In this document: positions 2,952 through 20,232 of the stretch, in pieces
Position numbering within the stretch: position 1 is the stretch's first letter
Layout: each line of letters begins with the position of its first letter
Virus record (IMG/VR): IMGVR_UViG_3300022072_002622
Span: 1 to 23,215 of that record
Length of the DNA stretch: 23,215 nt
Source: a virus
Direction: 5' to 3' (one strand)
Program-made: the position numbers and the translations under genes
The notes under the pieces: generated by a model
The model's database searches: none
Seen by the model: the letters and a program-made list of their open reading frames with translations, nothing else
What the model was told of the DNA's origin: nothing

Positions 2952-2966
2952 TCTTAAAAATATTTC

Positions 2967-2995
2967 TTGACAACGGATATCTCCTACTGTATAAT
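2967..2995 (+). promoter_or_regulatory. Perfect-consensus sigma-70 promoter for the virion gene cluster
   Basis: TTGACA (2967-2972), 17-nt spacer, TATAAT (2990-2995): both hexamers and the spacing match the consensus exactly. The expected transcription start is about 3002-3003, which is the A of the terminase-like start codon ATG at 3003. It probably drives the whole rightward cluster, in which no other clear promoter was found. Confidence 0.85.
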
Positions 2996-3002
2996 TTATG
3001 TC

Positions 3003-3473
3003 ATGTCAAAAGAAGTTTCCACAATATCTCCTGAAGGAGTTGAAGTAGCTAATTGTTACCTACAATACGGTAACATTAAAGACGTATGTGCGTATATGTC
3101 GGTACCAGAGTCACGAATTGTAGAAATTTTAAATACTCGAGAAGTAAAAAAATACGTTGATACTGTATATCTAGACATGGGGTATCGAAACAGAGGGAAT
3201 ATAGCCTCAGTACTTGATGAAATTATTAGTGCAAAGCTTGAAGAAGCTCAAGAAAGTGGAATGTACACATCAAAAGACCTTGCGGATCTTATGATGATGG
3301 CACATAAAATGAGAATGGACGAGATTAAAGCACTCGCGGAGCTTGAGAAAGCTCAATCAACGGCTATTCGTAGTCAAACCAATGTTCAGATAAATGAAGG
3401 AATCCCTTTTGGGCAAGGCAACTACGGCAAGTTGATGGAAAAACTATTAAATGGAGCTGGAACTACAGAATAA
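3003..3473 (+). CDS. Terminase small-subunit-like protein
   Basis: A 156-residue mainly helical protein. Residues 11-43 fit a helix-turn-helix of the small-terminase type (EGVEVANCYLQYGNIKDVCA ... SRIVEIL). The middle has YVDTVYLDMGYRNRGNI and a helical stretch with SKDLADLMMMAHKMRMDEIKA, and the tail has TNVQINEG and GNYGKLMEKLL. This layout matches a small-terminase family seen in marine tailed phages: the subunit recognises viral DNA and hands it to the large terminase ATPase/nuclease for packaging. ATG 3003 is chosen because an in-frame TTG at 2967 is part of the -35 box and lies upstream of the transcription start. No ribosome site precedes ATG 3003, so the mRNA may be leaderless. The large terminase is not in the window. 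Family assignment is by pattern recognition, moderately confident. Confidence 0.65.
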   Translation: MSKEVSTISPEGVEVANCYLQYGNIKDVCAYMSVPESRIVEILNTREVKKYVDTVYLDMGYRNRGNIASVLDEIISAKLEEAQESGMYTSKDLADLMMMAHKMRMDEIKALAELEKAQSTAIRSQTNVQINEGIPFGQGNYGKLMEKLLNGAGTTE

Positions 3474-3738
3474 CCGTATAGACCGCATAGAGAATAAAAT
3501 TGATAAGCTCACAGAGCTTGTAGTTGCTTTAGCAAGGATAGAAGAGCAAATTTCAGACCTCGGAAGTTCAAGAGACAAAATTGAATCACGACTTACCGAC
3601 TTAGAAATTATGCAATCGGTCACTTCACGAGACCTTGATTCTCATGACCGCATTCTGCAGAGCATTACTAAATTATTATGGATCGCTGTGACAGGATTGA
3701 TTACCGCTGGAATAGCAGCATTAGTAATTACTGGATAG
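3451..3738 (+). CDS. Coiled-coil tail-anchored membrane protein (holin/XhlA-like)
   Basis: A 95-residue protein. Residues 5-70 show heptad-like spacing of hydrophobic residues among charges (IDRIENKIDKLTELVVALARIEEQI, SRLTDLEIM, HDRILQSI), indicating a coiled coil. Residues 74-94 form one membrane helix (LLWIAVTGLITAGIAALVIT) at the very C-terminus. The architecture resembles XhlA-type haemolysin/holin-associated proteins and accessory lysis proteins of phages, which are often located near terminase genes. The gene overlaps the terminase-like gene by 23 nt, its ATG having only a weak GGA upstream, so coupled translation is likely. No endolysin is visible in the window. Lysis function is inferred from architecture and position; a virion or membrane-tether role is also possible. 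Confidence 0.6.
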   Translation: MELELQNNRIDRIENKIDKLTELVVALARIEEQISDLGSSRDKIESRLTDLEIMQSVTSRDLDSHDRILQSITKLLWIAVTGLITAGIAALVITG

Positions 3739-3741
3739 AAA

Positions 3742-6700
3742 ATGGCTTTAACCCTCCGCCTTGTAAAAGGTACTGAACTTACTTTTGATGAGCTCGATGA
3801 AAACTTTACTTATTTAAATGCAAATAAGTATGAAGCTAACGATGACGCTCAGTTTGGTACACTCACTTTTGGAACTCTTACAGATGGAGTTCTAGATGTA
3901 ATCGCCTTTACAAATGATGTTACTCTATCCTCTCAAACTCCTGAGCAGGTAGTTCCTACTGAATTTGCGATCACTTCATACATTGCCGCATATCATGCAG
4001 CAAATCCTTATTCTACCAGCGACCTCACAGACGTTTCTGCGTCTGGAACATATACAGGCGTATTAGTTTACGATGGCTTAGGTGAGTATATCCCTACAGT
4101 TCCTACCATGTCTTTTCTTCAAGATGTGGACGTATCTTCCGTTTCTGACGGTCAGATTCTTGCTTACGATGCTGATAGCGAGATGTGGACGACTGTCACT
4201 ACAGGCGCACTTAGTAATATTTACCTTGCAGGCCTTACAGATGTAGACCTTACAACTACTCCTCCCATTACAAACGATCTTCTTTCGTTTAATGGCTCTG
4301 AATGGGTACCAGCAACTCCAATTTTAAACCTTGATGGTTTACAAGATGTAGATCTTACAACTAATCCTCCTGTTGATGGTGAAAGCTTAATTTATGATGC
4401 TGGCACTTGGGTAGCAGGAACTCCATCTACTGTAGGAAAAATGGAAGTCTATGCTGCGGCTGGAGAAACTATTAGTGCAGGTCGTGCTGTTACCATCGGA
4501 CTTCAGGATACTAGTAAAACTGTAGCTTTTCCAATTCAATATGCTGATCCTGAATTTGGGCAGAGTATAAGTCTCGGAGCCGCAGTAGGCTCTCAATCTC
4601 ACTCAATATGGTGCACAGCCCAAGAAAAGTATATTATTGCGTACATCAATGATACTACAGGAGACGGAGAGTTTCGAGTAGGGGAATTAGATGACCAAGG
4701 CATAGAAATAACTCTCGACCCTACTATACACTACTTTGGTGAAAACATTGGTGGAGAATTTTCAGTCTCTTACGATATTGCAACTACACGAACAGTATTT
4801 GCATGGAGAGACTCAATTACGAATATAGGGTATGCAAGAGTAATTACTCTCGCAGGCTTCTCAGTAACTATGTCTGAGTTTCCAATTGACTTTTCCTTAT
4901 CTTCCCCTATTGGTACTCATTCAGTATCTTGTGATACAGCGAGTGGAAATGTTGTCTTTCATTATGCGGACCAAGAGAGTCTTGGTACTGGTGTGGGAAG
5001 ATTGGCAGAACTCGATGGCTTAGACCTGCTTTTTCAGCCGCCTATTCCATTTACGACAAAAGAAGTATATCAGATTCATACTGTTTACAATAGTATCGGA
5101 AATCGTCATGTAAGTGTATTTATTGACGAGCTTGGTACTGGGTGGTCTTTTGTCACTATCGTCAGTGGCTTGTTCCTCACTTTTAGAACTCCGCGCGGTA
5201 TTTGGGATAATATGACTACCCCATTTGTCACTCTCATGAAGGGTGGTTCAGAATGTTGGGTAGCCTATAGAAGAACAAATACTGTACCTGCTCAAGGATG
5301 GATAACTCGATTTACTAACTCAAATAATGGTACTACTAACACAAACTATACAGGCGCGCAATACACTCACTATCCCTTTGAAAATGGCCAGGATTCTGTA
5401 GAAACTCCTTATAAGATGAGTAATATAGATCCAGCAATTATAGGGTCTCAAGACACCCGAGGTGCTACTATTGTATGGGGAAGAGAAGACCAACTCGGGA
5501 ATGTATCTTTACATTCTACGCTTCTTACTTTCTCCGAATTCGGTGGCTACCCTATTGTAGATACGGACGACGCAATTAAAGCTTCTGATGACTCTAACGT
5601 TGAATTTTTGATTACAGACCAACTATGGCCTGTATTGCTAACTAATAAAGAGGAAAGCCGTATGCTTATTCCTCTAACTCAGCCAGGCGGTATTAAAGCT
5701 ATTACTTTTGGTACTAATCCTATAACTAATATTAGAGATTGGTTCGGCATAGCAGACGAAAGTTTTAGCTCTCCTATTAACCCGCAGAGTGGCTTTCCTG
5801 AGTGGAATACTGGACAAATTACTATTCTTGGTGGAACCTCCGAGGCAACCTCTTTTGCAGGAGGTATTGGGGGAGTACTAGTACCAGGAACCAAAATTTA
5901 TATTGATAACTCTCGTATATATAGAGGGGCTCTACGTACTAGTGATGTGGGCAGTGGTGCTATAGGAATAGCTGTTGCAGGTAATAAAGTATTAGTTACT
6001 GGAGATATTGAGCCAAACCCAGATGTTAGTGGTGTACCCAAAAGCTTAAATGAGCTTGAAGACGTAGACACAAAATCTGTAGCTCCTCAGTCTCAACAAT
6101 TTTTGCAGTGGAATACTAATAAACAAAATTGGGTTCCAGCCTACGCAGAGGTACAGGGAGAAATTAATAATCTTTCTGATGTAGATACTTTTACTAATTA
6201 CAATACGGGTATTCCAAACTCTCATTTATTTGCATGGGACGACTTTAATACAGAATGGGTTCCAAAACTTATTAATGATATTATTGCCGAAATCGGCGTA
6301 AGCATTAATGAGCTGAATGACGTTAATATCCTAATTCCGCAAGATAGACATGTGCTTACTTATTCAAGCGAAGCCGGACAATGGTTGTCTCAGTCCCTCG
6401 AATTAACCTCTAAACTAGAAGACCTTTTAGATGTTGATATGGATGATCAATCGTACCCTAGATCCACAGGCCATTTTTTGCAGTGGCAGGGTCAAAAATG
6501 GGTACCAAATGCGCCCTCAATACCTCCAATCTCCGCGCTCCCAGATACAGTTATAGGGGCCAGCCCTATAACAGGTCAGGCACTGGTATGGAACGGAACC
6601 ACTCAAAAGTGGGTAAATAGTTTTATTTCAATTGCAGGAAACTTAAACAGTCTTTCCGACGTAGATACAACAGCTACTGCTCCAATAAATGGTCAGGCAC

Positions 6701-9700
6701 TAGTATGGAATAGCGAGGCGGCGAAATGGGTACCTGGTACTGTTTCCGGAGGCGGTAGTGGTGGTGGCAATAATGAGGGCTCCCCCGTAGGGCCTCTTCC
6801 TGGTGGAGGAAGTAGTGAGGGAACTGTTGAAACAGAAGATGGCGATACTATTGTAATTCCTCCTCTTGAAGAGGGAGATAGTATAGACGACGCAATCTTG
6901 ACAGGGCAAGGTATTGTTGATCAAACTTATAGTAATAGTACAATAATTGGGTTTACCGACGTAATTTCAGGAAATGTTCATCCAGGTGACATTGTAGATA
7001 ACGTTGCCTTACTACCGAAACCTTTTCCAATTATACTATCAATTGCTGAAGATCGCCTATCTGTTACGGTTTCCCGCTCAGTGTCAATCCCTCAAGGAGC
7101 TGTTTGTGCTTTTGGTACCCCTCCTGTTATTCAAAACGTAGCGGGTACAGAGGGAATAGTAGTATCTCCTACTATGTCTCCAGGAGAATATGATACTATT
7201 CTTACACAACCTGCTCTTCCCGAAGGCGTGGTACCGGGCGTTGCAGTATACGTATCAAGCATTACAGAATATCCTGTTATTACGGGTATTTCAGCAGATC
7301 GCTTAAGTTTAACAGTATCCTACCCAATTCAAGTAATCCCCGGAGAAGTAATAACTTTTAATATAGTTATACCTGTAAAGACCACAGGAGGGGAGGGCAC
7401 TTTAGTTCTTGATGACCAAGACGCGGGTCCCATAGGCCCTATGACTATTGCTTCTTTTAGTGCTGGCGGAGTAACAATAAATTTCACAGAGGATCGTCTT
7501 CCCTTAGTCGACTCGGGTATGAATATTATAGCATACGATGAGCTTGGTGAGGTTGAGTATGTCTATATATACGGGGTTGACGGCGGCAGTACTGACTCTG
7601 TTAATATTACCAATCCCACTCGCGCCGCAGAGCTTTTATCTGTAGGACAGGAAGTATACTTTGAAAATCAAGCCTCGAAGGGGCAAACAAATGGGACCCT
7701 TATAAGAGTTCAGTCCGAAATTGATGACGAAGTAAAAATTGGTGATTATGTAATCTCACCAAGACTTATTGATGCGCCTAAAGTTACAAGCATAGATATT
7801 AATCTTTTGTATGTTACTGTAAACAAGAATATTGATGTTTTAGAGCACGGGGATTTTGTCACTTTCGGAGAAAGCGTAGATAAAGCGATAGAAGTAAATA
7901 TTCGCTTAGATGAATTAAAAGATACAGCTATTGAACCAGGATTGCTTCGAGATGGAGAGCTTTTAGTATGGGATGCAGAACTTGAAAAATGGACAACTAA
8001 AGATCTTCAACTTGCAACTTCCCTTGATTCACTAACTGATGTTCGTATAGACAATCGTGATACAGGTCAAATTCTTCGATATGTAGATAATGTAGAGTTT
8101 GGTATTCGAATGGAGAACATAACCCCCTCCTGGACTGCTGACGATTTACAAGATTTTGATTATAGTACTGTCGCAGAAAATTCGGTACTAGCAGGCAATA
8201 ACGGACAGTGGATACAAAAAGATATAGTTGAGACTATCAAGAGTGTAAACACTTTAGAACTTACAGATCTTTCTAATGTTAGTGTACTCAGCGCTACTTC
8301 AGGCCAGGGTCTTGTTTATAATGGTTCGGCGTGGACTGCTCAGAATTTTCCCGATGAGATTGGCGATTTATTAAATGTTAATGCCGCTAGCCCATCTACA
8401 TTAGATGCTCTGATTTGGAGCGGTAGTAGCTGGAACAGTGCTGAAATACCAAGAGCCTTAGAAGATCTTAATGCCTTAAATGTATTTGAGTTAGATCAAT
8501 TTCCTGTTGGAGGTTTTACGGATGTTCCTATTGGAACAGCAAATACTTCAAGATTTGTAAAATGGACCGGTAGTGGTTTTATAACAACTCGATTTAATAA
8601 TGATGACGGTTATGGAATTGGGCTTAAACTAGAAAATCTAGACGATGTTAACCTCGAAAATCCGTATACTGCGGACTTTATATCCTGGGATCCAGAAACA
8701 CAGATGTGGATTACTAGAAGCGTAGAAGGGGCAGTAATTGATATCGGTCTAACTGTCTTAAGCGATGTAGACCTTCAAACCGTTCTTCCACAGAGCAGAA
8801 ATACTTTAGAGTACGATGAGCCTACAGGACAGTGGAGACCTACAGAGCGCCAAGGCTTGGCACACTATGTACCTCACGAAGACTTAGTTCTAGGAGATTT
8901 AGTTGCTCTTCGGTCAGATGGAAAGGTAGAGAAAGTAGGAGAAGTTTCTAGTTCTGAATCAGTCTTATTTACCACAACAGCTACTCCTTCTTCAGCTTCT
9001 GACTACTATGGAAAATCGGTATACGTTTCAGATAACTACTATATTGTTGGAGCTCCCGGGTTTGAAAACTCAACTACTGGGGGTAAAATTGAAATATACG
9101 ATACTTCTACTAATTCACTGTTACAGGTCATTACTAATCCAACTCCAGGGCTTGCAACAAAATTTGGTGAATCAGTATCTATCTCAGACAATTTCTTTGT
9201 AGTAGGTGCTCCTGGCTATAATAGCAATGCTGGACGAATTTACATATATGATTTACCTGGATTTACATTATCAGAAACTATTGAAAATCCTAATCTATCT
9301 ACGTCCACTCTAGATGACCAATTTGGTAATAGAGTACAAATTACCAACGATTATATTGTTGTCTCAGCTATAACTGAAGAGCCTATAAATTTATCTGATA
9401 ATAATACGGGGGTTGTTTATATATTCAATCCTGCAACAGGCAACCTACTACACTCTATTCAAAGCCCTACTCCTTCTATTACAGGATGGGGCCAGTCTGT
9501 AGCTGTAGGTGCTTCTGGCTACATAGCTATAGGCCATCCCTTAAATAATGAAGTCAGAGTATACCAAGCAGCTACAGCCGGATTACTCTATACCTTAACC
9601 AGCCCGAATAACTTTGAAGGGAACTTTGGTAATTCGATGGGTATATCAACTAGCGGTAGGCTAGTTGTAGGAGCCCCTAATTCAGAAGGGGGTAAAATAT

Positions 9701-12700
9701 TTGTATATAACCTTGTTACCGGAGACTTTAACTACACTATAACAAATCCAGATAGGAATATATCAGGAGGAGCAGATAAGTTCGGTAATACAGTAGCTAT
9801 ATCTAACGACTATATAATAGCATCAGCTACTGATGAAAGAACCATAGGCACTAGCTGGGGTACTGTTTACATATTTGATGTAAACACTGGGAGATTCTTA
9901 AATGAGTTTAAAAATCCTACAGACACTAATATTAATTGGGGCTACAGTCTTGCAGTAACTAATGACTATACTATTATTGGAGCTCCTCGCTTAACTATTG
10001 CAGGGGTAGGAGAAATTCATACTTTTTCAAGTTCTTCATTCTTAACTAGTAATGCAGACAATTGGGTAGGTATAGTAGAAGAAGATAGACTAGTAGCAGA
10101 TAATAAAGATGTACTTGTTACAACAGTAGGTTCTGTTAATAAATTTGTATCAGGGCTGGAAACTAATAAAAACTATTATTTAGATGGTAGAGGCTTTTTA
10201 ACTCTTACCGAAACAGATTACGGAGTTTTGGGTAAAGCTACCGCAGAAACTGAGCTTTTAATTACAGGTAACGTAGTAAGCGCTGAGACCGGTGTAAGCT
10301 ACTTAAACGATATTCGAGATGTGGATACTGTTTCTAAGCCTCCGGCTAATAACCAAGGATTGGTGTGGGATAGTGCAAATAATAGATGGTCTCCAAAAAC
10401 AATTGGATATAGTAATATTACTACGTTTGGTGGGCTATCGGATACTTCTGTAGCCTCCCCTACTCCTGGTCAAAGTATACAATGGACTGGAACTCATTGG
10501 GCTCTTGCGAATTATATTCCTCAAGGATCTTTTGTTCTTAATGAGTTAAGTGATGTTAATACTGCGGGGTTAGAGCACGGAGACTCTTTAGTCTATAGTT
10601 TTATTTTAGATAAATGGATACCTCAACAGACTGGAACTTCAAATGTATTTATACTTGATGATTTAACAGATGTAGACTTACAAGAGATTACGCCAGTAAG
10701 TAACGATGTTTTAGTTTATAATCTTGAGGAGGATAAATGGATTCCAGGGGCGGTATCTAGGGTTGCTTCACTTGATGATTTAACAGATGTAGATTTACAA
10801 ACCCAGGCTCCAACTGAGGCTGATGTAATAGCTTATAACTCTATTACAAGTAAGTGGGAACCTCAACTCATTGCCAACATTACAGTAACAAGTTTAAGCG
10901 GTTTAGATGAGGTAGACATTACGAGTCTTGGTAATAATCCCTTAGAGGGTGAAACACTAGTATGGAATGCTATTGATTCCGTCTTTAGACCGGGGTCTCC
11001 CAGTCTTGATACAATCAGTTTAGGCTCTTTAGGAGATGTAGATACAACTACGGGAGGAAATGTACCTGAGGCTGGCGAAAGCTTATTTTGGGATGGCAGT
11101 AACTGGGTTCCTGGACCTACAGGGGATGCTGTCGCAGCTTTCATTGGCGATTTAGTAGATGTCAATGTTATTTCTTACCCTCCTAAAGAGTTACAAGTAC
11201 TTACCTGGGATTCCTCCATTAATAGATGGTATCCTAGAAACGGGCACTCAGGAGGCATTGAAGACTTTATAGCCGAAGGAGACATTCTACAGGGAGAGGT
11301 AGTTTCTATCAATTTGAATGGCTCTGTTAGTAGAACAGGCCAGTCTCCTTTTCAGCCTGCCTGGTACAAAGAAAATCCAACTCCTTTTGGTACTGCTTCA
11401 AATGACTTTTTTGCCTATAGTCTTGCAGCAAGTACTGATAAGCTGCTCGTATCGGCGGATAGAGAAGATGAGACAGGCGAGATCGACTCGGGTAAAGTAT
11501 ATGTATATGATGCGCTTGGATTTCTAGAAGCAACTATTAATAATAATAATATAAACGCCTCCCCAGCAAATGATAGATTTGGATTTAGCTTAGCAATACA
11601 TGGTAATTTATTTGCGATTAGTGCGCCTTTCGAAGATTCAGGACTAAACTACCAAACTGGAGCAGTATATCTTTATAATCGTACTACTAATGCTATAACT
11701 AGCCAAATAGTACACCCCGGCCTAGCAACATTTGGGTCCGTACAGTCTTATAGCCCCAATAACAGTCAATTTGGACATTCAATATCTCTTGGAGGTGAAA
11801 GATTAGCAGTCGGAGCTCCCTTTGATTCTGGTAACATAGCTATCAATAGCGGAGTAGTATACATAGTTAATCCGTCTCCTGCTGTTGGCGAGGCCCAATT
11901 TCCTCATATTATAACAAATCCTAATGAGACCGGCGGCTCATATAATGACCAGTTTGGTACGAAAGTAGCTTTAAATAGTACTGGACAATACCTTGCAGTT
12001 GCTAGCAAGAACGAAGGGCCAAGTTCTACCAAGGGTGGCGTATATATATTTGATATTTCTAACGAGGAAATCGATCCTGTACAAGTAGCCTATATAGCAA
12101 ATCCTGGATTAGGTGGCGGCTTTAGTTATAATTTCGCAAGTGCTTTAAAGTGGGATCAAGTTTATCCAAATCTTTTAGCTATAGGATCTTATGATTCGGA
12201 TACAGATTACCCTGAGGGGTACGACCAGGGCAGAGTATTTATATGGGATCTGAATACACTAGATTTCCGAACTGTAATTACTAATCCTAATAGTTATAAT
12301 AACCCTACAACCGGAGATCGATTTGGTTGGTCCGTAGATATGAAAGAGGGCAAGCTCTTAGCTGGAGCAACTTATGAAGAGCAGGGCTATGTTGGCGGGA
12401 AGTATACTAATGCTGGTAAAGCTTATTTACTGGATGCTACTTCAGGTCAATTAGAAGCTATCTTCTCTAATCCTAATATATATGGGGACTCTACTAATGA
12501 GCAGTTCGGTTACTCAGTAGCTATTGGAGGTCAGGGCTTTAATGACTTATATCATGTAGGTACTCCCTATGTTAGAAATACAATTAGTAGTGATTTTAAT
12601 TCTGGCGCTGTTGTAACTTTTGATTCTCAAATTACCACCAATGCTGACGCATGGATAGGTAGAGCGTTTGAAGATATTGCTGATGGAGAGGTTGGGAACG

Positions 12701-15700
12701 TTACGCTATTCGGAGGAGTAGCAAAAAATTTATTTGGGCTGGAAGCAGGCAGTAATTATTATTTGCAAGTAGACGGAGGATATACCCTCACACTTTCTCC
12801 TTATGGAATTATAGGAAAGGCGCTTAGTCCAAATACACTACTTATAACAGGTGACGTAGAGTCTAATACTGCTGATCAAGTAAATGTACTTAATGATTTA
12901 AACGACGTAACAAGTGTTACCCCACAAGTTGGAGATGGATTAGTTTGGAATGGTTCAGGCTGGGTAACAGGCGCAGTTTCTGGCGGGGTCTCAAATATTG
13001 GAGAGCTGGATGATGTATTTTTACCAGTACCTAATTTACTTCAGTCAGGGCAAGTTCTAACTTGGAATGGAGTAGCCCAGTCATGGGTTAATGCAGCTAC
13101 GGGGTCTAGTAATGTAGCTATAATAAATGATTTAACAGACGTAGACTTAGATACTATCCCACCTTTAGAAGATCAAGTACTACAATTCGATGGGGCAACA
13201 TGGAGACCAACAGATTTACCCGAAGGACAGAGAATTACAGGAGTAGCTTCCGAAAATATAACTGAAGGAAGCATAGTACTATATGGAAATACAGGACAAT
13301 TTAAAAATGTAGAAATATCTATTGGCGCATTCCTTGCAAGTATACCTGCATCTGTACCAAGTAACTATGCGTTATTTGGCTCAGTTATTACACATCAGGG
13401 TGATTATTACGCAGTCTCTGCTCCAGGAGCCTCAGCACAGGGTGTTGGAAGTTACTTCGGAGTTGTAACTGTATATGATGCAGTTACTGACGCTCCTGTT
13501 AGAACTTTCTATCCCCCGCGTGAGGGCTACCAAGTTATTGCAAATGTTTCCAATCAATACTTTGGAGAGTCTATAAGTATTTACGGAGATTACCTAGCAG
13601 TAGGTGCGCCTAAGGGAACAATAAATGGAGCCGTGCAGACAGGCATAGTATATGTTTTTAGAATATCTACTGGTAGTTTAGTATACATAATACCCTGCCC
13701 TTTTAATCAAAATGCAAATGACAACTTCGGAGCGTCTGTATCTATAGATGACACTGCCATTTTAATCGGATCACCAGGCTACGATAGCCCTACTAGCTTT
13801 AATACGGGAAGAGCCTATTTATATGATTTTAATGACCTTGATGGTTACTCATATGACGTAGAAGAGGAGGAATGGCCAATTATTCCTCCTAGTAAAATAT
13901 TTGAAAATTCTAACGATGAGGGTACCCCCGCTGGAGATGCTTTCGGTTCTGTAGTTAGTATCACGCCTTCGTCCGTAATTATTTCTGCTCCCTCCGAGGA
14001 CACCGGAGGTACTCTAAGTACTGGTAGAATCTATATAAGAAATCGTGTAACTACTGCTAGTATCGCAACTTTAGTAAATCCTAATATTGATTCAGAAGGC
14101 TTCGGAACAGTACTAGCTTACTGGCCAGAAAAAATAATAGTCGGAGCACCTGGATACAATGCAAATCAAGGCATAGTTTATATCTTTTCAGCTACTACAG
14201 GGGCCCTACTACATACTATTCAAAGCCCAGAAGCAATAGGTGATAGGTTTGGCGTTTCCGTAGCTATTGGGGAGTACCAGATAGTAATAGGCTCAGAAAC
14301 TGGCAAAGAGGGTTATCCTGATTCCGGAAAAATTCATGTATACTCTAATGCTGCTCCCCCTGTTTATTATGGAGGTTTTGATAACCCTGGATACAATGTA
14401 TCTCCTTCCGGAGAAAGAATGGGAACGGCTGTTGCTATAACCCCCGCAGGAAAAGCTATAGCAGGCGCTCCTTATAGTGATCTCAGCGCTGGTAGTCAGC
14501 AAAATCCTGCAATTGATCGTGGAGCTGTACATCTATTCGATGTAAGTGAATCTGCTATTAGTTCTGATGCAGGTGAGTGGATAGGTATCGCAGCGGGTAC
14601 TATGACTCAAGGAGAGACTGGGGAAGTTGTTATTCTTGGGGGGCTTACTCCATTCGTATACTCAGGATTAGTTCCTGCTACCTATTACTACGCGAACTTT
14701 GACGGTACACTAACGACAAATACAACTGATTATGGCTTAGTAGGTATTGCAACAAATAGTCAACAACTATTAATACTCGGCAGTATTTCTGGCGTAGCTA
14801 CTATGCCAGACCTTAGCGACGTAGATTTTTCTAGTGGTCTTACCCCCTCCCATGCTTTAACATGGAATGGTCAATTCTGGGAAGGTAAGTTCGTATCTAC
14901 TATAACTAGTATAACTGAATTAGATGATGTATCTTTGATTGATACACCTCCAGAAGATACCCAAGCTTTGGTATTTGAGTCTTTGAGTGGAAAATGGAAA
15001 GCTACCGATATTGGGTACTCTAATGTTTTTGCTTTTAATGACTTAAATGATGTTAGTATTTCTAATGTAGCTGTTGGGCAAAGTCTTTCTTGGAACGGCT
15101 CACAGTGGGTGCCTGAAACTTTTTCCCAAGTATCAACTCTCGATGAATTAACTGATGTAAATACAAATGTATTTAAAACTGATAGAGATATTCTTGAATG
15201 GGACGGTGAAGCGCTTGAGTGGACAGTAGCTAGAAATGTTTTCGGAAACTTTATAAATATAGAGGCTGAAGGCTCTATTGCTGCGGGCGAGCCCGTCTAT
15301 ATAACTAATAACTCTAAAGTAGCTCAAATACGGGGTACGGAGGAAATAACAGGGACTGCAGTATTCGAAAATGACTTCTTTCAGGATATTTCTCTCTCAG
15401 GCTACGGTAGATCAATTGATATATATGAAGATTTAATAGTAGCAGGTAATCCTGAATTTGACCTACCAGGAATTACAAATACAGGAAAAGCATTTGTATA
15501 TAGTGCTAGTTCCGGAGAATTGTTACAGGTACTATATCCTCCTACTAGCTATACCTACCAGCAGTTTGGTAATACTGTTGCCACAAACGGGGACTTAGTA
15601 GCTATTATAGCAGCTGAAAATCCTTATGCTAATGGCAAGGGTAAGGTTCATATTTATAAAGGTACTACTGGAGAGTACTTAAGATCAATTGAGCACCCCG

Positions 15701-17949
15701 ATCCCTCTAGAACTACTTCAAATGGCTTTGGCTACCATCAAAAGTCTATAGATTTTCAAGGAAACTTCCTTTTAGTGGGGGACAAAAACTATAGAGATCC
15801 TATTAGTAATGCATCTCTAGGTAGGGCGTTCTTATTTAATGCGTATACAGGAAACCTAGTACATACTTTTGAACATCCTAATTCCTCTGCCGTAAATTCT
15901 AGAAGTTTTGGCACACAAGTAGCTATGCTTGATGACGGTAGTAAAATTCTCATATATGATGTCTTACAGGACGGGCTTAATTCTGCAACTGCTTATATAT
16001 ATGATTATGCCTATGATTTAGTAAGTACTATAGAAGTACCTCATTACAATGCAGATACTATCGCGATAAATAGTAATTACTTAATTGTAGCTAGTACTTA
16101 TTCAGGCTACCTGTACATTCATAGCCTGCTGGATGGCACACTTTTATATACTTCTGGGTCTGCTTACTTAGATTATGGGCAGAAGTCTCTTTCTGCGAAT
16201 GAAAAAACTTTAGTTGTAACATACGGGTCTAATAAGGGTTTCAGAGTTTTTGATATCGCATCGAGAATTCTACTAGCAAGTGAGACTACTTCAAGTGTAG
16301 GCAGCTGTGCATCCCTCTTTAAAACTAGATTAGTATACTCTACAGGATATCAGGCAATAACTTATAATTTGAATGATATATCTATTTCTAGCAAGGCCGC
16401 AGATTGGGTAGGTATTTCAGAGGGTGCTTACTTAGCTGGAGATACTACTACTATTATTACAGGTTCTGGTTTTGTTTCTGCACTATCAGGGCTTATACCC
16501 GGGGCTAATTACTACGTAGCTGTAGATGGAACCTTATTCCCTGGAGCTACAGGCTTCGGAAAGATAGGACGAGCTGTATCTGAAACCGAGCTTTTAGTAA
16601 GTTCTAATACTAGTAATATTGACCTTGACTCTGATAGCACTGCGTCACTTATTGCAGGTATCGGAGATTTAACAGATGTAGACACTTTTACATTATTTCC
16701 TACAGATGGACAATACCTACAGTATAATAGTGTTACTAGTACTTGGTCTCCTGGAGATGTGTCTCTTCCCAGTCTAACAGATATTAGTTTAGCTGACATT
16801 GAAAACAACGATCTTTTATTATACTCTGAAGGAATATGGTCAAATGGGACTTTAGCAACTACTAATCTATCAGATATAGATACTACTGTAGCTCCTACAG
16901 CATCTCAAACTTTAATTTGGAATGAGAATACCTCTAAGTGGGAGGCGGGTATACCTGAACGAGCTCTTGATTCTTTAAGTAATATGGGTAGCAGTGTATC
17001 TACTCCAACTACAGGTCAGATACTAGTATACAATACTATTGGAGATCAATGGAGCGCAGTAGATAATGAGTTTAGTTTAGATGGCTTAACCGATGTAAAT
17101 CTAGAGGGAGTTACTGATAATCAATTCCTGCAGTATAATTCCACAAGTAGTGAGTGGGAGCCCGGAACCGTAGCAACAGCCGTATCAGAATTAACAGACG
17201 TAGATTTGACTGGAGTTACAGAAGGACAGTACTTAGTATACAATGATCAAGATAAGTGGGTTCCTACAACTATAGAGTTCGCGGCTGCACTAACAGACTT
17301 AACAGATGTGAATGCTGTAGGAGCTACTCAAGGTCAAGGATTAATATACGATACTGGAACAAATAAATTTGAATTAGCAATAGTAGGTACATCTAATGTG
17401 GATACATTAGAAGACCTATCTAATGTTTCAATACCAACAACCCCCAATAATGGGGATGTATTAAAATATAACGGGAACACAGATACTTGGGAAGCTACGC
17501 CTACTCCTAGTCCTGCCGTTGTATATGCAACTAGAAACTCTTTTCCTGCAATAGGGAACTTAGGGGATTTATCTTTTGCACAAGACACAGGCGTTTTATA
17601 TGTGTGGGAAGGAACTATATGGTATAACTTAAAGAGAACCAATGCGTTCTACTTGGTTAGAGCCGGACAGTTTACAGGACCACTAACTGGAACACAGTTA
17701 TTTCAACCTCAACAAACGATAACATTACATGAGATACGAGCACAAGTTGATCAACCTTCTGGTGCCTCTCTAATATTTTCTGTGATGCGAAGTGGTGCTG
17801 AGGTTCAGCAATTTGTTATACCCCCCGCGGCTCCCTTCATTGAAGCTGCTTTTACTGCGGGAGTTGTAGTGGGGCCTGCGGATGAAATAACTGTTGACAT
17901 AATATCTGGGCCAGGTACTAACCTGTCCATTAAGTTCATTTACTCATAA
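3742..17949 (+). CDS. Giant tail-fibre-like protein with tandem beta-propellers (4,735 residues)
   Basis: One uninterrupted reading frame. Residues 1-35 (LRLVKGTELTFDELDENFTYL) match the common N-terminus of phage tail fibres, which attaches to the tail. About 40 repeats of roughly 30-50 residues follow in seven groups, pattern L-x-D-L-T-D-V-D ... G-Q-x-L-x-Y/W-N ... W-x-P, a repeat known from phage fibres. Between the groups lie five large blocks at about residues 262-663, 1744-2103, 2542-2966, 3194-3607 and 3874-4217. The last four consist of FG-GAP repeats (FG-x-SV ... VGAP), seven per block, as in seven-bladed propellers. Each of the five is followed by an adapter domain (WxGI ... SGLxxGxxYY ... 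GxLTxT ... GKA ... LLITG). A Gly/Ser-rich linker and a beta-repeat region occupy about 1001-1386. The C-terminus (4592-4735) begins with a TGVLYVWEGTIWYNL segment and ends in a beta-sandwich-like domain, a candidate receptor-binding tip. The gene starts 3 nt after the previous stop. Adhesion to the host surface is inferred; fibre identity is well supported. Confidence 0.85.
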   Translation: MALTLRLVKGTELTFDELDENFTYLNANKYEANDDAQFGTLTFGTLTDGVLDVIAFTNDVTLSSQTPEQVVPTEFAITSYIAAYHAANPYSTSDLTDVSASGTYTGVLVYDGLGEYIPTVPTMSFLQDVDVSSVSDGQILAYDADSEMWTTVTTGALSNIYLAGLTDVDLTTTPPITNDLLSFNGSEWVPATPILNLDGLQDVDLTTNPPVDGESLIYDAGTWVAGTPSTVGKMEVYAAAGETISAGRAVTIGLQDTSKTVAFPIQYADPEFGQSISLGAAVGSQSHSIWCTAQEKYIIAYINDTTGDGEFRVGELDDQGIEITLDPTIHYFGENIGGEFSVSYDIATTRTVFAWRDSITNIGYARVITLAGFSVTMSEFPIDFSLSSPIGTHSVSCDTASGNVVFHYADQESLGTGVGRLAELDGLDLLFQPPIPFTTKEVYQIHTVYNSIGNRHVSVFIDELGTGWSFVTIVSGLFLTFRTPRGIWDNMTTPFVTLMKGGSECWVAYRRTNTVPAQGWITRFTNSNNGTTNTNYTGAQYTHYPFENGQDSVETPYKMSNIDPAIIGSQDTRGATIVWGREDQLGNVSLHSTLLTFSEFGGYPIVDTDDAIKASDDSNVEFLITDQLWPVLLTNKEESRMLIPLTQPGGIKAITFGTNPITNIRDWFGIADESFSSPINPQSGFPEWNTGQITILGGTSEATSFAGGIGGVLVPGTKIYIDNSRIYRGALRTSDVGSGAIGIAVAGNKVLVTGDIEPNPDVSGVPKSLNELEDVDTKSVAPQSQQFLQWNTNKQNWVPAYAEVQGEINNLSDVDTFTNYNTGIPNSHLFAWDDFNTEWVPKLINDIIAEIGVSINELNDVNILIPQDRHVLTYSSEAGQWLSQSLELTSKLEDLLDVDMDDQSYPRSTGHFLQWQGQKWVPNAPSIPPISALPDTVIGASPITGQALVWNGTTQKWVNSFISIAGNLNSLSDVDTTATAPINGQALVWNSEAAKWVPGTVSGGGSGGGNNEGSPVGPLPGGGSSEGTVETEDGDTIVIPPLEEGDSIDDAILTGQGIVDQTYSNSTIIGFTDVISGNVHPGDIVDNVALLPKPFPIILSIAEDRLSVTVSRSVSIPQGAVCAFGTPPVIQNVAGTEGIVVSPTMSPGEYDTILTQPALPEGVVPGVAVYVSSITEYPVITGISADRLSLTVSYPIQVIPGEVITFNIVIPVKTTGGEGTLVLDDQDAGPIGPMTIASFSAGGVTINFTEDRLPLVDSGMNIIAYDELGEVEYVYIYGVDGGSTDSVNITNPTRAAELLSVGQEVYFENQASKGQTNGTLIRVQSEIDDEVKIGDYVISPRLIDAPKVTSIDINLLYVTVNKNIDVLEHGDFVTFGESVDKAIEVNIRLDELKDTAIEPGLLRDGELLVWDAELEKWTTKDLQLATSLDSLTDVRIDNRDTGQILRYVDNVEFGIRMENITPSWTADDLQDFDYSTVAENSVLAGNNGQWIQKDIVETIKSVNTLELTDLSNVSVLSATSGQGLVYNGSAWTAQNFPDEIGDLLNVNAASPSTLDALIWSGSSWNSAEIPRALEDLNALNVFELDQFPVGGFTDVPIGTANTSRFVKWTGSGFITTRFNNDDGYGIGLKLENLDDVNLENPYTADFISWDPETQMWITRSVEGAVIDIGLTVLSDVDLQTVLPQSRNTLEYDEPTGQWRPTERQGLAHYVPHEDLVLGDLVALRSDGKVEKVGEVSSSESVLFTTTATPSSASDYYGKSVYVSDNYYIVGAPGFENSTTGGKIEIYDTSTNSLLQVITNPTPGLATKFGESVSISDNFFVVGAPGYNSNAGRIYIYDLPGFTLSETIENPNLSTSTLDDQFGNRVQITNDYIVVSAITEEPINLSDNNTGVVYIFNPATGNLLHSIQSPTPSITGWGQSVAVGASGYIAIGHPLNNEVRVYQAATAGLLYTLTSPNNFEGNFGNSMGISTSGRLVVGAPNSEGGKIFVYNLVTGDFNYTITNPDRNISGGADKFGNTVAISNDYIIASATDERTIGTSWGTVYIFDVNTGRFLNEFKNPTDTNINWGYSLAVTNDYTIIGAPRLTIAGVGEIHTFSSSSFLTSNADNWVGIVEEDRLVADNKDVLVTTVGSVNKFVSGLETNKNYYLDGRGFLTLTETDYGVLGKATAETELLITGNVVSAETGVSYLNDIRDVDTVSKPPANNQGLVWDSANNRWSPKTIGYSNITTFGGLSDTSVASPTPGQSIQWTGTHWALANYIPQGSFVLNELSDVNTAGLEHGDSLVYSFILDKWIPQQTGTSNVFILDDLTDVDLQEITPVSNDVLVYNLEEDKWIPGAVSRVASLDDLTDVDLQTQAPTEADVIAYNSITSKWEPQLIANITVTSLSGLDEVDITSLGNNPLEGETLVWNAIDSVFRPGSPSLDTISLGSLGDVDTTTGGNVPEAGESLFWDGSNWVPGPTGDAVAAFIGDLVDVNVISYPPKELQVLTWDSSINRWYPRNGHSGGIEDFIAEGDILQGEVVSINLNGSVSRTGQSPFQPAWYKENPTPFGTASNDFFAYSLAASTDKLLVSADREDETGEIDSGKVYVYDALGFLEATINNNNINASPANDRFGFSLAIHGNLFAISAPFEDSGLNYQTGAVYLYNRTTNAITSQIVHPGLATFGSVQSYSPNNSQFGHSISLGGERLAVGAPFDSGNIAINSGVVYIVNPSPAVGEAQFPHIITNPNETGGSYNDQFGTKVALNSTGQYLAVASKNEGPSSTKGGVYIFDISNEEIDPVQVAYIANPGLGGGFSYNFASALKWDQVYPNLLAIGSYDSDTDYPEGYDQGRVFIWDLNTLDFRTVITNPNSYNNPTTGDRFGWSVDMKEGKLLAGATYEEQGYVGGKYTNAGKAYLLDATSGQLEAIFSNPNIYGDSTNEQFGYSVAIGGQGFNDLYHVGTPYVRNTISSDFNSGAVVTFDSQITTNADAWIGRAFEDIADGEVGNVTLFGGVAKNLFGLEAGSNYYLQVDGGYTLTLSPYGIIGKALSPNTLLITGDVESNTADQVNVLNDLNDVTSVTPQVGDGLVWNGSGWVTGAVSGGVSNIGELDDVFLPVPNLLQSGQVLTWNGVAQSWVNAATGSSNVAIINDLTDVDLDTIPPLEDQVLQFDGATWRPTDLPEGQRITGVASENITEGSIVLYGNTGQFKNVEISIGAFLASIPASVPSNYALFGSVITHQGDYYAVSAPGASAQGVGSYFGVVTVYDAVTDAPVRTFYPPREGYQVIANVSNQYFGESISIYGDYLAVGAPKGTINGAVQTGIVYVFRISTGSLVYIIPCPFNQNANDNFGASVSIDDTAILIGSPGYDSPTSFNTGRAYLYDFNDLDGYSYDVEEEEWPIIPPSKIFENSNDEGTPAGDAFGSVVSITPSSVIISAPSEDTGGTLSTGRIYIRNRVTTASIATLVNPNIDSEGFGTVLAYWPEKIIVGAPGYNANQGIVYIFSATTGALLHTIQSPEAIGDRFGVSVAIGEYQIVIGSETGKEGYPDSGKIHVYSNAAPPVYYGGFDNPGYNVSPSGERMGTAVAITPAGKAIAGAPYSDLSAGSQQNPAIDRGAVHLFDVSESAISSDAGEWIGIAAGTMTQGETGEVVILGGLTPFVYSGLVPATYYYANFDGTLTTNTTDYGLVGIATNSQQLLILGSISGVATMPDLSDVDFSSGLTPSHALTWNGQFWEGKFVSTITSITELDDVSLIDTPPEDTQALVFESLSGKWKATDIGYSNVFAFNDLNDVSISNVAVGQSLSWNGSQWVPETFSQVSTLDELTDVNTNVFKTDRDILEWDGEALEWTVARNVFGNFINIEAEGSIAAGEPVYITNNSKVAQIRGTEEITGTAVFENDFFQDISLSGYGRSIDIYEDLIVAGNPEFDLPGITNTGKAFVYSASSGELLQVLYPPTSYTYQQFGNTVATNGDLVAIIAAENPYANGKGKVHIYKGTTGEYLRSIEHPDPSRTTSNGFGYHQKSIDFQGNFLLVGDKNYRDPISNASLGRAFLFNAYTGNLVHTFEHPNSSAVNSRSFGTQVAMLDDGSKILIYDVLQDGLNSATAYIYDYAYDLVSTIEVPHYNADTIAINSNYLIVASTYSGYLYIHSLLDGTLLYTSGSAYLDYGQKSLSANEKTLVVTYGSNKGFRVFDIASRILLASETTSSVGSCASLFKTRLVYSTGYQAITYNLNDISISSKAADWVGISEGAYLAGDTTTIITGSGFVSALSGLIPGANYYVAVDGTLFPGATGFGKIGRAVSETELLVSSNTSNIDLDSDSTASLIAGIGDLTDVDTFTLFPTDGQYLQYNSVTSTWSPGDVSLPSLTDISLADIENNDLLLYSEGIWSNGTLATTNLSDIDTTVAPTASQTLIWNENTSKWEAGIPERALDSLSNMGSSVSTPTTGQILVYNTIGDQWSAVDNEFSLDGLTDVNLEGVTDNQFLQYNSTSSEWEPGTVATAVSELTDVDLTGVTEGQYLVYNDQDKWVPTTIEFAAALTDLTDVNAVGATQGQGLIYDTGTNKFELAIVGTSNVDTLEDLSNVSIPTTPNNGDVLKYNGNTDTWEATPTPSPAVVYATRNSFPAIGNLGDLSFAQDTGVLYVWEGTIWYNLKRTNAFYLVRAGQFTGPLTGTQLFQPQQTITLHEIRAQVDQPSGASLIFSVMRSGAEVQQFVIPPAAPFIEAAFTAGVVVGPADEITVDIISGPGTNLSIKFIYS
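4529..6012 (+). other. Propeller-like block 1 plus adapter in the giant fibre
   Basis: Residues about 262-663 repeat a unit with VSYDIATTRTVFAWRDS and GYARVITLAG-like strands, a different type from the FG-GAP blocks; it resembles propeller-like repeats seen in other phage fibres. The following adapter (about 664-757) keeps WFGI, GTKIYID, GAIGIAVAG and VLVTGDIE of the module shared by all five blocks. The fold is inferred. Confidence 0.5.
6745..7900 (+). other. Gly-rich linker and EDRLSVTV beta-repeat insert in the giant fibre
   Basis: Residues about 1001-1030 are a Gly/Ser/Asn linker. Residues about 1030-1386 contain related strands (IAEDRLSVTVS, ISADRLSLTVS, INFTEDRLPL, INLLYVTVN) alternating with PGEVITF / HGDFVTFG-like turns, unlike the rest of the protein. 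It looks like an inserted tandem beta-sandwich segment that may act as a flexible joint. Confidence 0.5.
8971..10290 (+). other. FG-GAP seven-bladed propeller (block 2) plus adapter
   Basis: Seven blades begin YYGKSV, KFGESV, QFGNRV, GWGQSV, NFGNSM, KFGNTV and NWGYSL; several carry VGAP. The adapter follows from 10051 (NADNWVGIVEED ... NYYLDGRGFLTLTETDYGVLGKA ... LLITGNV). FG-GAP repeats are the units of integrin-alpha and bacterial adhesin propellers. Confidence 0.7.
11365..12867 (+). other. FG-GAP seven-bladed propeller (block 3) plus adapter
   Basis: Blades begin at FFAYSL, RFGFSL, QFGHSI, QFGTKV, NFASAL, RFGWSV and QFGYSV, with SAPFEDS and VGAPFDS loops. The adapter from 12640 reads NADAWIGRAFEDI ... 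NYYLQVDGGYTLTLSPYGIIGKA ... LLITGDV. Confidence 0.7.
13321..14796 (+). other. FG-GAP seven-bladed propeller (block 4) plus adapter
   Basis: Blades begin at LFGSVI, YFGESI, NFGASV, AFGSVV, GFGTVL, RFGVSV and RMGTAV, with VSAPG, VGAPK, IGSPG, ISAPS, VGAPG and AGAPY loops. The adapter from about 14563 reads GEWIGIAAG ... YYANFDGTLTTNTTDYGLVGIA ... LLILGSI. Confidence 0.7.
15361..16620 (+). other. FG-GAP-derived propeller (block 5) plus adapter
   Basis: Four blades are clear (GYGRSI, QFGNTV, GFGYHQ, SFGTQV) and three are degenerate (ADTIAI, DYGQKS, VGSCAS), making seven. This is the most diverged of the four. The adapter from about 16393 reads AADWVGISEG ... NYYVAVDGTLFPGATGFGKIGRA ... LLVSSN. 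Confidence 0.6.
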
Positions 17950-18300: not shown

Positions 18301-20232
18301 ATGGCTAAAATTTATGATTATAAAGGATCAAGCGCCGCGTTCGTAATCCTAGAAGACCCACGAGTTTCAAATGATGGTTTATATTTATTTGATTATAAGC
18401 ATGACTTTTCTACTCTAAGCCCTATCTACAATAAAAAGTTTGCAACCACCACCTCTAATTCAAATGGTATAGCAAGTAGTAACAGGCAGTCTTATAATAG
18501 GCCGGGCTACCAGATGGCTCTATCAAAAGACTACGTGGGTTTTGATAATTATACCAACACGACCCCCACGACCTATCTAAATTTGCATCAGCATAAGTTT
18601 TGGATGTCTATGGATAGAAATTATAAAGCTAAAGCTGACGTATTTGTTATGAATAATGGGTCCTCTGATGCAGTTTTCGCCTGGACCGGCACTGAGGCCG
18701 AGAGCGCCACGGTAACCTTGACGAGTCTCGGAGTATCTGAGTCTCAAGACTTAACTGATATTGCTTTTTCCGGAGGCGTGAGTTATCAACCCTCTCTGAC
18801 CAGCATCGTTCGACCGGGAAATTCTTCTTATTGGTTATATTATCACAGTCCGGGTAATGAGATAGGGGGTCTATATAGGTTCTATAATACCACTAATCAA
18901 TGGTACACCGATAGGATAATGAGAGGGTACAATATTAACTGGCCAGGCGTTCAAAACCTCACCTCAGGCTATGCTTTTACTAACTATACCTCTACTTCTT
19001 TCCTAGGAATAAGCAGTGTTGATGCTCAGCCTATATTTGTGAACGTTTATAACTCTTATAGCCCCGGCAGCAACGTGAGCAGCGCCTATCGGACGACCAT
19101 ATATAAGTGTACGGGCACGAACCAGCAGACCGTGACTACCATGATAACTGGTTCTGCGATGTCGGCGACGGCCAGATCAGCCGGAGGACTAGATGTAAAT
19201 GATTTAACGAGTGATGGTACTACATCCGGAGGAAACTTTGCTAACTCCAGCCCATATCATGTGCCTACTAAACCTAGTAGAACTATGACTGACCCTAGAG
19301 ATGGTACAGGAAACACAAAACTTTGGTACGCCGTTTATATTGACGATAATAGTGACTATCACCCCGATCTATGGACGTGGGATACTACGGATGATTCCTT
19401 CACTGTACAAACTGATGTTATAATGCAGGCAGGAGCAGGACAATCTGTAGGATTTACTGGTAAATCCAGCGGTGTTGATGCTTGGAATGCTGTCATTAAC
19501 AATAGTCTATATCCGGGGATGTTTAGGGAGAACAATTCTTATAACAACACTTCTATCGTTACTCATCATTTATTTGAATTTAATGGGGAAAGATATATTA
19601 CGCTTATCTGGGTTGATGCTCCTAGGTATTATGCCACTAATGATACAATAAAAACCCTATTAACTTGGAAAATTGATGCTGCAGATCCTCGGCTCTTTAC
19701 ATTTCATAGTAAGAAGGTATTACCATTTCCTTGGCAGTCGCATATATTTTTAAACGATGAAGAAACGCTTATAGGTCTTAATGACGATTATAGTTTTTTA
19801 ATTATTTCTTTTAACTCAGCTACTGGATGGGAAACAGCAAATACTTTATCCTATAAAATAACCAGTATTGGTAGAGACAGTACTGATAGAATTTGGTACA
19901 CTAAAGATAGTACTTCTTTAGGTAGCACAAATTATCCAGAACTGCACTTGCTAACTCCTAGTTTGCCTCTTACTGTAACAGTAACTCCGGCTGCTACTAG
20001 CTACACGTACGCAGGAGCACAGATTGCGAGTACGGTAGCAGTTAGTGCGTACAATGCACAAGGGGCTAGAATTTCTACAGATGTTAAATTGCTAATTGAA
20101 GGAACTGGTATGACTTTCACTGGAGGTACTACTATTACTACTGTTACCACGAGTGCATCTGACCCTATCGATGTTGATATATTTATTAATAGTGCAGGAT
20201 TCTCTAACATTACTGCAAGTGTGGATATTTAA
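18301..20232 (+). CDS. Beta-rich virion protein with C-terminal Ig-like domain
   Basis: A 643-residue protein rich in Tyr, Asn, Ser, Thr and Trp. There is no signal peptide or membrane helix. Residues about 1-550 consist of recurring beta segments with aromatic ends (YWLYYHSPGN, KLWYAVYIDDNSDYHPDLWTWDTTDDSFTVQTD, HLFEFNGERYITLIWVD, RIWYTKDST), suggesting a propeller or multi-sheet body. Residues about 556-643 (LPLTVTVTPAATSYTY ... GARISTDVKLLIEGTGMTF ... ITASVDI) look like a bacterial Ig-like (Big-type) domain, often found on virion surfaces for carbohydrate contact. The ribosome site AGGAGGT lies at the end of the previous gene, 8 nt before ATG 18301; the gap between genes is 1 nt. Parts around 18545-18575, 18665-18810 and 19055-19185 use much more GC-rich codons than the rest. 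It is probably a tail or fibre-associated protein; the exact role is unknown. Confidence 0.65.
   Translation: MAKIYDYKGSSAAFVILEDPRVSNDGLYLFDYKHDFSTLSPIYNKKFATTTSNSNGIASSNRQSYNRPGYQMALSKDYVGFDNYTNTTPTTYLNLHQHKFWMSMDRNYKAKADVFVMNNGSSDAVFAWTGTEAESATVTLTSLGVSESQDLTDIAFSGGVSYQPSLTSIVRPGNSSYWLYYHSPGNEIGGLYRFYNTTNQWYTDRIMRGYNINWPGVQNLTSGYAFTNYTSTSFLGISSVDAQPIFVNVYNSYSPGSNVSSAYRTTIYKCTGTNQQTVTTMITGSAMSATARSAGGLDVNDLTSDGTTSGGNFANSSPYHVPTKPSRTMTDPRDGTGNTKLWYAVYIDDNSDYHPDLWTWDTTDDSFTVQTDVIMQAGAGQSVGFTGKSSGVDAWNAVINNSLYPGMFRENNSYNNTSIVTHHLFEFNGERYITLIWVDAPRYYATNDTIKTLLTWKIDAADPRLFTFHSKKVLPFPWQSHIFLNDEETLIGLNDDYSFLIISFNSATGWETANTLSYKITSIGRDSTDRIWYTKDSTSLGSTNYPELHLLTPSLPLTVTVTPAATSYTYAGAQIASTVAVSAYNAQGARISTDVKLLIEGTGMTFTGGTTITTVTTSASDPIDVDIFINSAGFSNITASVDI

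Follow-up and report, generated by a model that had tools for sequence, protein, structure and literature searches.

The window analysed here is a virus record of 23,215 bases (IMG/VR record IMGVR_UViG_3300022072_002622) that carries, next to a terminase small subunit gene (terS), a single uninterrupted open reading frame (ORF) for a giant fibre-like protein of 4,735 amino acids (Table 1). An earlier note on this DNA, made from the sequence alone, had described the product as one chain with five serial β-propeller blocks separated by LTDVD-type repeats; the ORF is intact and had been placed correctly. Orthologues are present in other IMG/VR contigs as a complete gene with 99.96% identity (L002), as partial genes with 97% identity (L003, L004 and L009) and as complete genes with 53% identity over 4,537 aligned residues (L005–L008). 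Because the same gene is present in these contigs, an assembly artefact is an unlikely source of the giant ORF. The ratio of non-synonymous to synonymous substitution (dN/dS) against L003 is 0.23 over 4,174 codons, the protein therefore being under purifying selection.

The propellers are real and stand in series on one chain. The whole protein matches FG-GAP_2 (PF14312) with an E value of 2.6e-76 and 252.1 bits (curated cut-off 23) over 13 stretches; the older PF01839 gave one match, under its cut-off (17.5 versus 22.1 bits). A profile trained on the blades of the giant protein itself detected seven blades apiece in block A (residues 1754–2099), B (2555–2962) and C (3212–3607), and five in block D (3888–4137), where two more were assigned by eye (about 4143–4215). 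Seven blades in each of four blocks, as had been claimed, is thus borne out for A, B and C and only partly for D; the 53%-identical relative L005 has 7, 7, 7 and 3 detectable blades in the corresponding blocks. At E ≤ 0.01 there were 26 blade matches in the real protein versus one in 50 shuffled copies.

For block A the propeller identity comes from a predicted structure, and for B to D from sequence. The model of block A (residues 1640–2225, eight-sequence alignment) has a mean predicted local distance difference test (pLDDT) score of 68.2 and a predicted template modelling score of 0.61; of the 34 ten-residue blocks in the propeller, 22 reach a pLDDT of at least 80. Among solved structures, its top VIA matches were integrin alpha-V propellers (Z 36.3, root mean square deviation 3.0, 336 aligned residues, 20% identity), and Foldseek ranked YncE and integrin alpha-4/beta-7 at the top. 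These results agree with the propeller fold that the earlier note had anticipated for residues 1700–2200, although the VIA matches covered the propeller part of the model only and say little on the fold of the flanking bead half. Integrins have one propeller per chain, and block A shares their predicted fold but not the DxDxDG calcium loop: none occurs in the whole protein, and a relaxed pattern found five sites, none with aspartate at positions 1, 3 and 5. Membership of the calcium-binding integrin subgroup is therefore not claimed; these sites are not part of the PF14312 match. The giant protein contains neither RGD nor KGD.

All five blocks, including the N-proximal block N, are bracketed by the same pair of segments, an entry of 31–34 residues and an adapter of 78–98 residues, with 349–429 residues between them in the window. 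The shared adapter that the earlier note proposed for four blocks is found at all five, block N included. The same note had treated entry and adapter as separate flanking pieces; tests with rejoined halves instead indicate, at the level of sequence, that they are two halves of one bead domain of about 110 residues into which each block is inserted. With its halves rejoined, block A of L005 matched phrog_4368 in one run (residues 5–90 on profile positions 129–215) at 25.8 bits and E 5.2e-6, compared with 17.7 bits for the second half alone, 16.9 bits for the reversed order and nothing for the first half alone. Block B of L005 gave 19.1 bits when rejoined, and its second half alone failed to match this family. 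An ORF of 1,096 amino acids in Marine virus AG-345-O18 has the same split bead around an insert of about 393 amino acids, and its rejoined pair behaves like block A of L005 (25.4 versus 21.8 bits for phrog_4368; 22.2 versus 16.8 bits for phrog_30025). In this protein the insert is not of FG-GAP type and only one bead was found. When phrog_4368 was sought in eight records it was matched in two, G004 (the genome of L005) and AG-345-O18. The rejoined block B bead of L005 likewise found one record in the phage collection, AG-345-O18, and the rejoined block A bead found nothing there at E 5. The AG-345-O18 protein (L026, 2703–5990) is unannotated and has a cysteine-rich C-terminal part after the bead.

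A profile was built from nine rejoined beads, namely blocks A–D of the window and of L005 together with AG-345-O18, block N being left out. Searched against the Protein Data Bank (PDB), it ranked a neck fibre chain, 8keg_a (gp82), first among solved structures (E 1.1e-4). The capsid stabilization protein 8qsy was matched weakly (E 0.056, domain independent E value 0.46) in a run that spans the junction of the two halves, and a titin row (E 0.008) was set aside, its domains having independent E values of 12 or worse. The chain 8keg_a comes from the structure (8KEG) of the Anabaena myophage A-1(L) neck fibre, made of gp82, gp81 and gp80 (PMC10966104). In the A-1(L) genome (246 reading frames of at least 60 amino acids) the bead profile ranked gp82 first (about 25.2–25.3 bits, E 1.6e-7) and gp81 second (23.4 bits, E 5.9e-7), the next frame scoring 2.5 bits (E 1.8). 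No shuffled sequence reached the score of gp81 or gp82 (1,979 and 1,737 scored, respectively, of 2,000 each). The gp81 alignment is a single run over the junction (profile positions 5–91 of 110, gp81 residues 56–143, 22.5 bits). With a profile of reversed order the gp81 score fell from 23.4 to 15.4 bits and its best piece from 22.5 to 9.3, and the halves alone gave 7.6 and 12.8 bits. With gp82 the alignment is confined to the second half, and reversing the order hardly lowers the score (23.3 versus 25.3 bits), so that gp82 says nothing on the junction.

The neck fibre of A-1(L) therefore resembles the giant protein in having a homologous bead domain (both halves in gp81, the second half in gp82) and beads in series. 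According to PMC10966104, gp81 and the C-terminal part of gp82 (gp82C) are trimeric globular beads in a chain of about 100 nm, fitted to a map of 6.07 Å. The two systems differ in that the A-1(L) fibre consists of about 14 copies of a small insert-free bead protein, whereas the giant protein has five beads per chain, each split by an insert, with LTDVD shaft between them. At 168 and 241 amino acids, gp81 and gp82 have no insert of the size seen in the giant protein.

Table 1. Positions of the features of the giant fibre gene and of the adjacent terS gene in the window.
Feature	Residues	Position	Strand	Basis or remark
Terminase small subunit (terS)		2967..3473	+	phrog_3802, E 1.3e-37
Giant fibre gene, 4,735 amino acids		3742..17949	+	uninterrupted ORF; orthologues found
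N-terminal segment with motif LVKGTELTFDELDENFTYLN		3742..3921	+	probable virion-anchoring end
Shaft 1, 4 LTDVD-type repeats		4018..4422	+	repeat profile
Bead N, first half	231–264	4432..4533	+	weakest entry match
Insert N, non-FG-GAP repeat block	265–661	4534..5724	+	internal repeats; propeller-like, unproven
Bead N, second half	662–759	5725..6018	+	adapter match
Shaft 2, 6 LTDVD-type repeats		6046..6741	+	repeat profile
Shaft 3, 7 LTDVD-type repeats		7906..8844	+	repeat profile
Bead A, first half	1705–1735	8854..8946	+	bracket match; L005 orthologue tested in rejoined form
Insert A, seven-bladed FG-GAP propeller	1736–2101	8947..10044	+	FG-GAP_2, blade profile, predicted structure
Bead A, second half	2102–2181	10045..10284	+	bracket match; L005 orthologue tested in rejoined form
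Shaft 4, 8 LTDVD-type repeats		10303..11238	+	repeat profile
Bead B, first half	2504–2535	11251..11346	+	bracket match
Insert B, seven-bladed FG-GAP propeller	2536–2964	11347..12633	+	blade profile, sequence only
Bead B, second half	2965–3042	12634..12867	+	bracket match
Shaft 5, 3 LTDVD-type repeats		12889..13215	+	repeat profile
Bead C, first half	3162–3192	13225..13317	+	bracket match
Insert C, seven-bladed FG-GAP propeller	3193–3606	13318..14559	+	blade profile, sequence only
Bead C, second half	3607–3685	14560..14796	+	bracket match
Shaft 6, 4 LTDVD-type repeats		14809..15225	+	repeat profile
Bead D, first half	3835–3866	15244..15339	+	bracket match
Insert D, FG-GAP propeller	3867–4215	15340..16386	+	5 blades detected, 2 by eye, sequence only
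Bead D, second half	4216–4293	16387..16620	+	bracket match
Shaft 7, 8 LTDVD-type repeats		16660..17499	+	repeat profile
C-terminal domain		17539..17946	+	best-conserved part between lineages

LTDVD-type repeats do separate the blocks, as had been noticed: 40 were found at E < 0.05, in seven groups, and at E ≤ 0.01 there were 39 in the real protein and none in 50 shuffles. Families of the PHROG collection with their best stretches in these shaft regions included phrog_9627 and phrog_677 (baseplate wedge tail fibre connector, E 9e-24), among others; the PDB search with the shaft returned two chance-level rows only (E 0.82). The whole order of parts is kept in L005, with five beads and 37 LTDVD-type repeats. 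Across this 53%-identical pair the propeller bins are 35–67% identical and the last three bins (residues 4501–4735) 74–83%, the best-conserved stretch between lineages; the C-terminal domain found no row in the PDB. At the other end the LVKGTELTFDELDENFTYLN motif of the N-terminal segment is present in the relative with two changes, and a motif of this kind presumably marks a virion-anchoring end. Between shafts 2 and 3 lies a stretch without LTDVD repeats (7099–7896, + strand; residues about 1120–1385) in which repeats resembling ISxDRLxxTVS can be seen by eye; part of it is absent from L005, with 20 aligned residues in the bin 1201–1300. A wider search with the C-terminal pair reached 22 loci, of which 11 (L038–L048) have only a short LTDVD-type stretch in common and no blade, bead or N-type profile match at E < 1e-3, and a scan with block C of L005 returned only four contigs, all already known. 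A profile made from eight blocks was nowhere conserved strongly enough to serve for scanning.

Block N is a repeat block of a different kind. Its self-similarity was reached by none of 100 shuffles, and a profile trained on its own units finds four clear ones of about 53 amino acids. An FG-GAP identity was set aside, the blade profile having no match within residues 265–661. No relatives of the insert were found in the phage collection at E 0.01, the PDB gave one chance-level row only (E 0.18), and its repeat profile does not detect the AG-345-O18 insert. Of the fifth, different propeller-like block expected nearer the N-terminus, the different repeat block thus stands; its propeller fold is no more than putative (see below).

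The supermodule had also been taken as a sign of growth by module duplication, and this survives for the bead frames only. Adapters are alike in all ten block pairs (z 5.1–16.7); entries are clearly alike only in A–B and B–D (z 7.9 and 4.8), the other eight pairs matching weakly or not at all. From these sequence comparisons, duplication of the bead frames is the most likely history. The blades are out of register between propellers, with 11 of 84 best partners carrying the same number against 12 expected by chance, so that copying of whole propellers is unsupported, though still conceivable. The same procedure between the window and L005 placed 19 of 21 blades in register (7, 5 and 7 of 7 in A, B and C, with D left out). 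Mean blade similarity within A (6.9) exceeds that of A to the other blocks (3.9–5.6), and within-block similarity is not clearly higher in B (5.2), C (5.1) or D (1.7). On this evidence the propellers may have diverged beyond recognition, regrown from single blades or been acquired separately; regrowth from single blades is described for propellers in general in PMC9218822.

Serial FG-GAP blades on phage proteins and nested propellers already have precedents. Sinorhizobium phage Phosso gp108 (XYS97267.1, 3,692 amino acids, hypothetical; PV764938.1 57900–68978, L023) has 34 serial blade matches at E ≤ 0.01 and 19 FG-GAP_2 stretches, but differs in its laminin-G-like domain towards the C-terminus. 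The phage C48C1 protein WJE88002.1 (1,480 amino acids, hypothetical) has two groups of FG-GAP blades with 12 matches. Cyanophage S-TIM5 AEZ65754.1, annotated as virion structural protein and packaging, is a seven-bladed FG-GAP propeller (7 matches) but stands alone in 407 amino acids. Seven matches were also found in S-SCSM2R and six in the giant structural protein of S-MbCM6, of which a part was scanned. Neither the bead nor the LTDVD repeat was found at E ≤ 0.01 in these five or in the scanned part of a neighbouring S-SCSM2R protein, which sets Phosso gp108 and the C48C1 protein apart from the giant protein. Among the best 50 BFVD matches to the block A model are FG-GAP proteins of giant viruses, S-TIM5 and proteins of uncultured Caudovirales. 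The nozzle proteins of SU10 and T7, compared by their descriptions in PMC9509320 and PMC10607447, likewise have a seven-bladed propeller nested between two parts of a platform domain, but each chain has a single propeller in a different carrier domain, and the protein lines a channel in the tail. Bacteria are described as having tandem integrin-type propellers (PMC3192720), and contractile injection systems as having fibres that bear propellers (PMC12923769). The earlier note knew of no phage fibre with this arrangement; in open-licence literature none with FG-GAP propellers appeared by title among the matches listed, but serial FG-GAP blades do occur, unannotated, in Phosso and C48C1. What is new is the mounting, with modules set in a neck-fibre-type bead, five times per chain, between LTDVD shaft segments.

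The position of terS next door places the fibre gene, by sequence, in a packaging and structural region. In the relative G004, terS is followed by a gene for a small protein with a weak holin-like match, and this by the fibre gene, several ORFs and the terminase large subunit gene (terL). Beyond terL come an ORF that looks HNH-like by eye, the portal, protease/major head protein, major tail protein, tape measure and minor tail proteins, and then a protein of 1,874 residues with a match to central tail fibre J. The ORFs between fibre and terL include homologues of the two window genes downstream of the fibre gene. With the gene carried between terS and terL in relatives, and a J-type tail tip gene present, the view of the product as a fibre-like protein of a tailed phage is upheld. 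Among the top rows, the closest matches of the window terS (45.5% identity) and of terL in the relative (48.6%) are in Vibrio T5-like phages; one of the Vibrio phages, Ceto, is filed in Demerecviridae. The genome of L005 (G004, 95.8 kb) is a mixed one, combining T5-like terminase genes with the tail tip protein that matches central tail fibre J.

Given these data, we consider it probable that the protein is a single-chain bead-and-shaft virion fibre bearing inserted lateral modules, which would be adhesive. The LTDVD repeats would form the shaft and carry along it five neck-fibre-type beads, each split at one point by its insert, either one of four integrin-type FG-GAP propellers or the different repeat block. 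Should the beads form trimers like those of gp81 and gp82C, the analogy would give a trimeric fibre, attached to the virion by its N-terminus, that holds up to 15 modules out sideways, as many as 12 of them FG-GAP propellers. These modules would most likely bind host-surface glycans or proteins, and may let the phage attach multivalently, and perhaps reversibly, ahead of engagement by the tail tip (J). More tentatively, and at somewhat less than even chances, the bead domain may have one socket point for large exchangeable binding modules, the sockets being kept and the propellers swapped or re-grown independently; phages would then make multivalent fibres by placing several loaded beads of this kind on a chain. 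If the fibre model is right, a plain structural bead would have been turned into a display platform that holds the fibre together and presents a disc-shaped binding module from one point, several per chain, and a single domain would connect neck fibres with cement-like domains and giant fibre proteins. Small recombinant constructs could then serve to test multivalent adhesion in an uncultured phage group. The serial use of integrin-type propellers on phage proteins would come to light as well, the records examined annotating them as hypothetical or plainly structural.

Several observations weigh against this reading. The bead halves in the block A model have low to modest confidence (ten-residue blocks at pLDDT 43–75), with the shaft lower still, and the AlphaFold model of insert N, built from two sequences, is unusable at pLDDT 32.5, leaving its propeller status unproven. 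The entry half of bead N is weakly related to the others (z −0.2 to 3.0). Block A of L005 matches no PHROG family with the insert left in, and PF09956 (Phage_cement_2) was reached by one of three rejoined sequences at 16.8 bits, under its curated cut-off of 24, for which reason the bead is not classed with the cement proteins. In the close pair with L003 the propellers show no fast evolution, with a dN/dS of 0.198 for A–D against 0.250 for the shaft and other parts; the bead halves stand at 0.319 and insert N at 0.076, the latter over 100 codons only, as L003 lacks the first 561 residues. When single rejoined window beads were scanned against PHROG, the scan covered block B, and neither its rejoined form nor its second half alone matched a family. 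This last result would suit an arrangement in which the entry and the adapter are small linkers independent of each other, with the propellers lying in line between shaft segments, as would the shortness of the entry halves and the weakness of their mutual matches (z −0.2 to 7.9). Such an arrangement is nevertheless quite improbable, given that the halves, once rejoined without the insert, align with phrog_4368, phrog_30025 and gp81 in a single run and lose this when reversed or single, and that AG-345-O18 has the same two halves around an insert of another kind.

A further point against the adhesive fibre comes from A-1(L) itself, where the carbohydrate-binding module at the distal end of the bead fibre failed to bind the host (PMC10966104); a bead fibre need not therefore be a receptor binder. 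Together with the first rank of the neck fibre among solved structures, the finding of gp82 and gp81 in the A-1(L) genome, and a gene that adjoins the terminase genes away from the tail genes, this would fit a neck or head fibre of whisker type that steadies or protects the particle, or holds it in biofilm or mucus, with no receptor recognition. We regard this as unlikely: the shaft repeats match phrog_677, a baseplate and tail-fibre connector family, gp81 and gp82 have no insert of such size, and in seven of the 20 rows listed in the terS search (617 records matched) a receptor-binding protein is named at or next to the match. The T5-like records that name such a protein at terS, together with the T5-like window terS and relative's terL and the best-conserved C-terminus, would favour a side tail fibre in the receptor-binding position of T5-like phages, with the C-terminal domain as its tip and the propellers as spacers or weak glycan hooks. 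Such high conservation would, however, be unusual for a receptor-binding tip, four propellers would be costly to keep as mere spacers, and Vibrio phage Ceto has beside terS a hypothetical protein with no role assigned, on the other strand; we doubt this reading too. Finally, many non-viral proteins have FG-GAP propellers too, which would allow for a non-virion protein released from or displayed on the infected cell. The fibre-type shaft repeats, the bead domain of a known virion fibre, the terminase and structural gene neighbours and the annotation of the single-propeller S-TIM5 relative as a virion structural protein all speak against this, and it is the least probable of the explanations considered.

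Just upstream of terS, a gene for an outer-membrane-type protein (2344–2922, + strand) matches Pfam Gcw_chp with E 1.3e-15. It is present in L002 and was not found in the searched stretches of L005, L012, L013, L014 and L015; its absence from those of the 53% relative makes it look accessory. In the genome collection it had one distant relative (33%), in an Acidobacteria metagenome-assembled genome. Its place resembles that of the receptor-blocking lipoprotein gene of T5. Downstream of the fibre gene, two genes (18301–20232 and 20236–22866, + strand) encode proteins of 643 and 876 amino acids. Neither is matched by a Pfam family at E 0.1, and the phage collection gave nothing for the second at E 0.001; the relative has homologues of both, with 50% and 39% identity, respectively.

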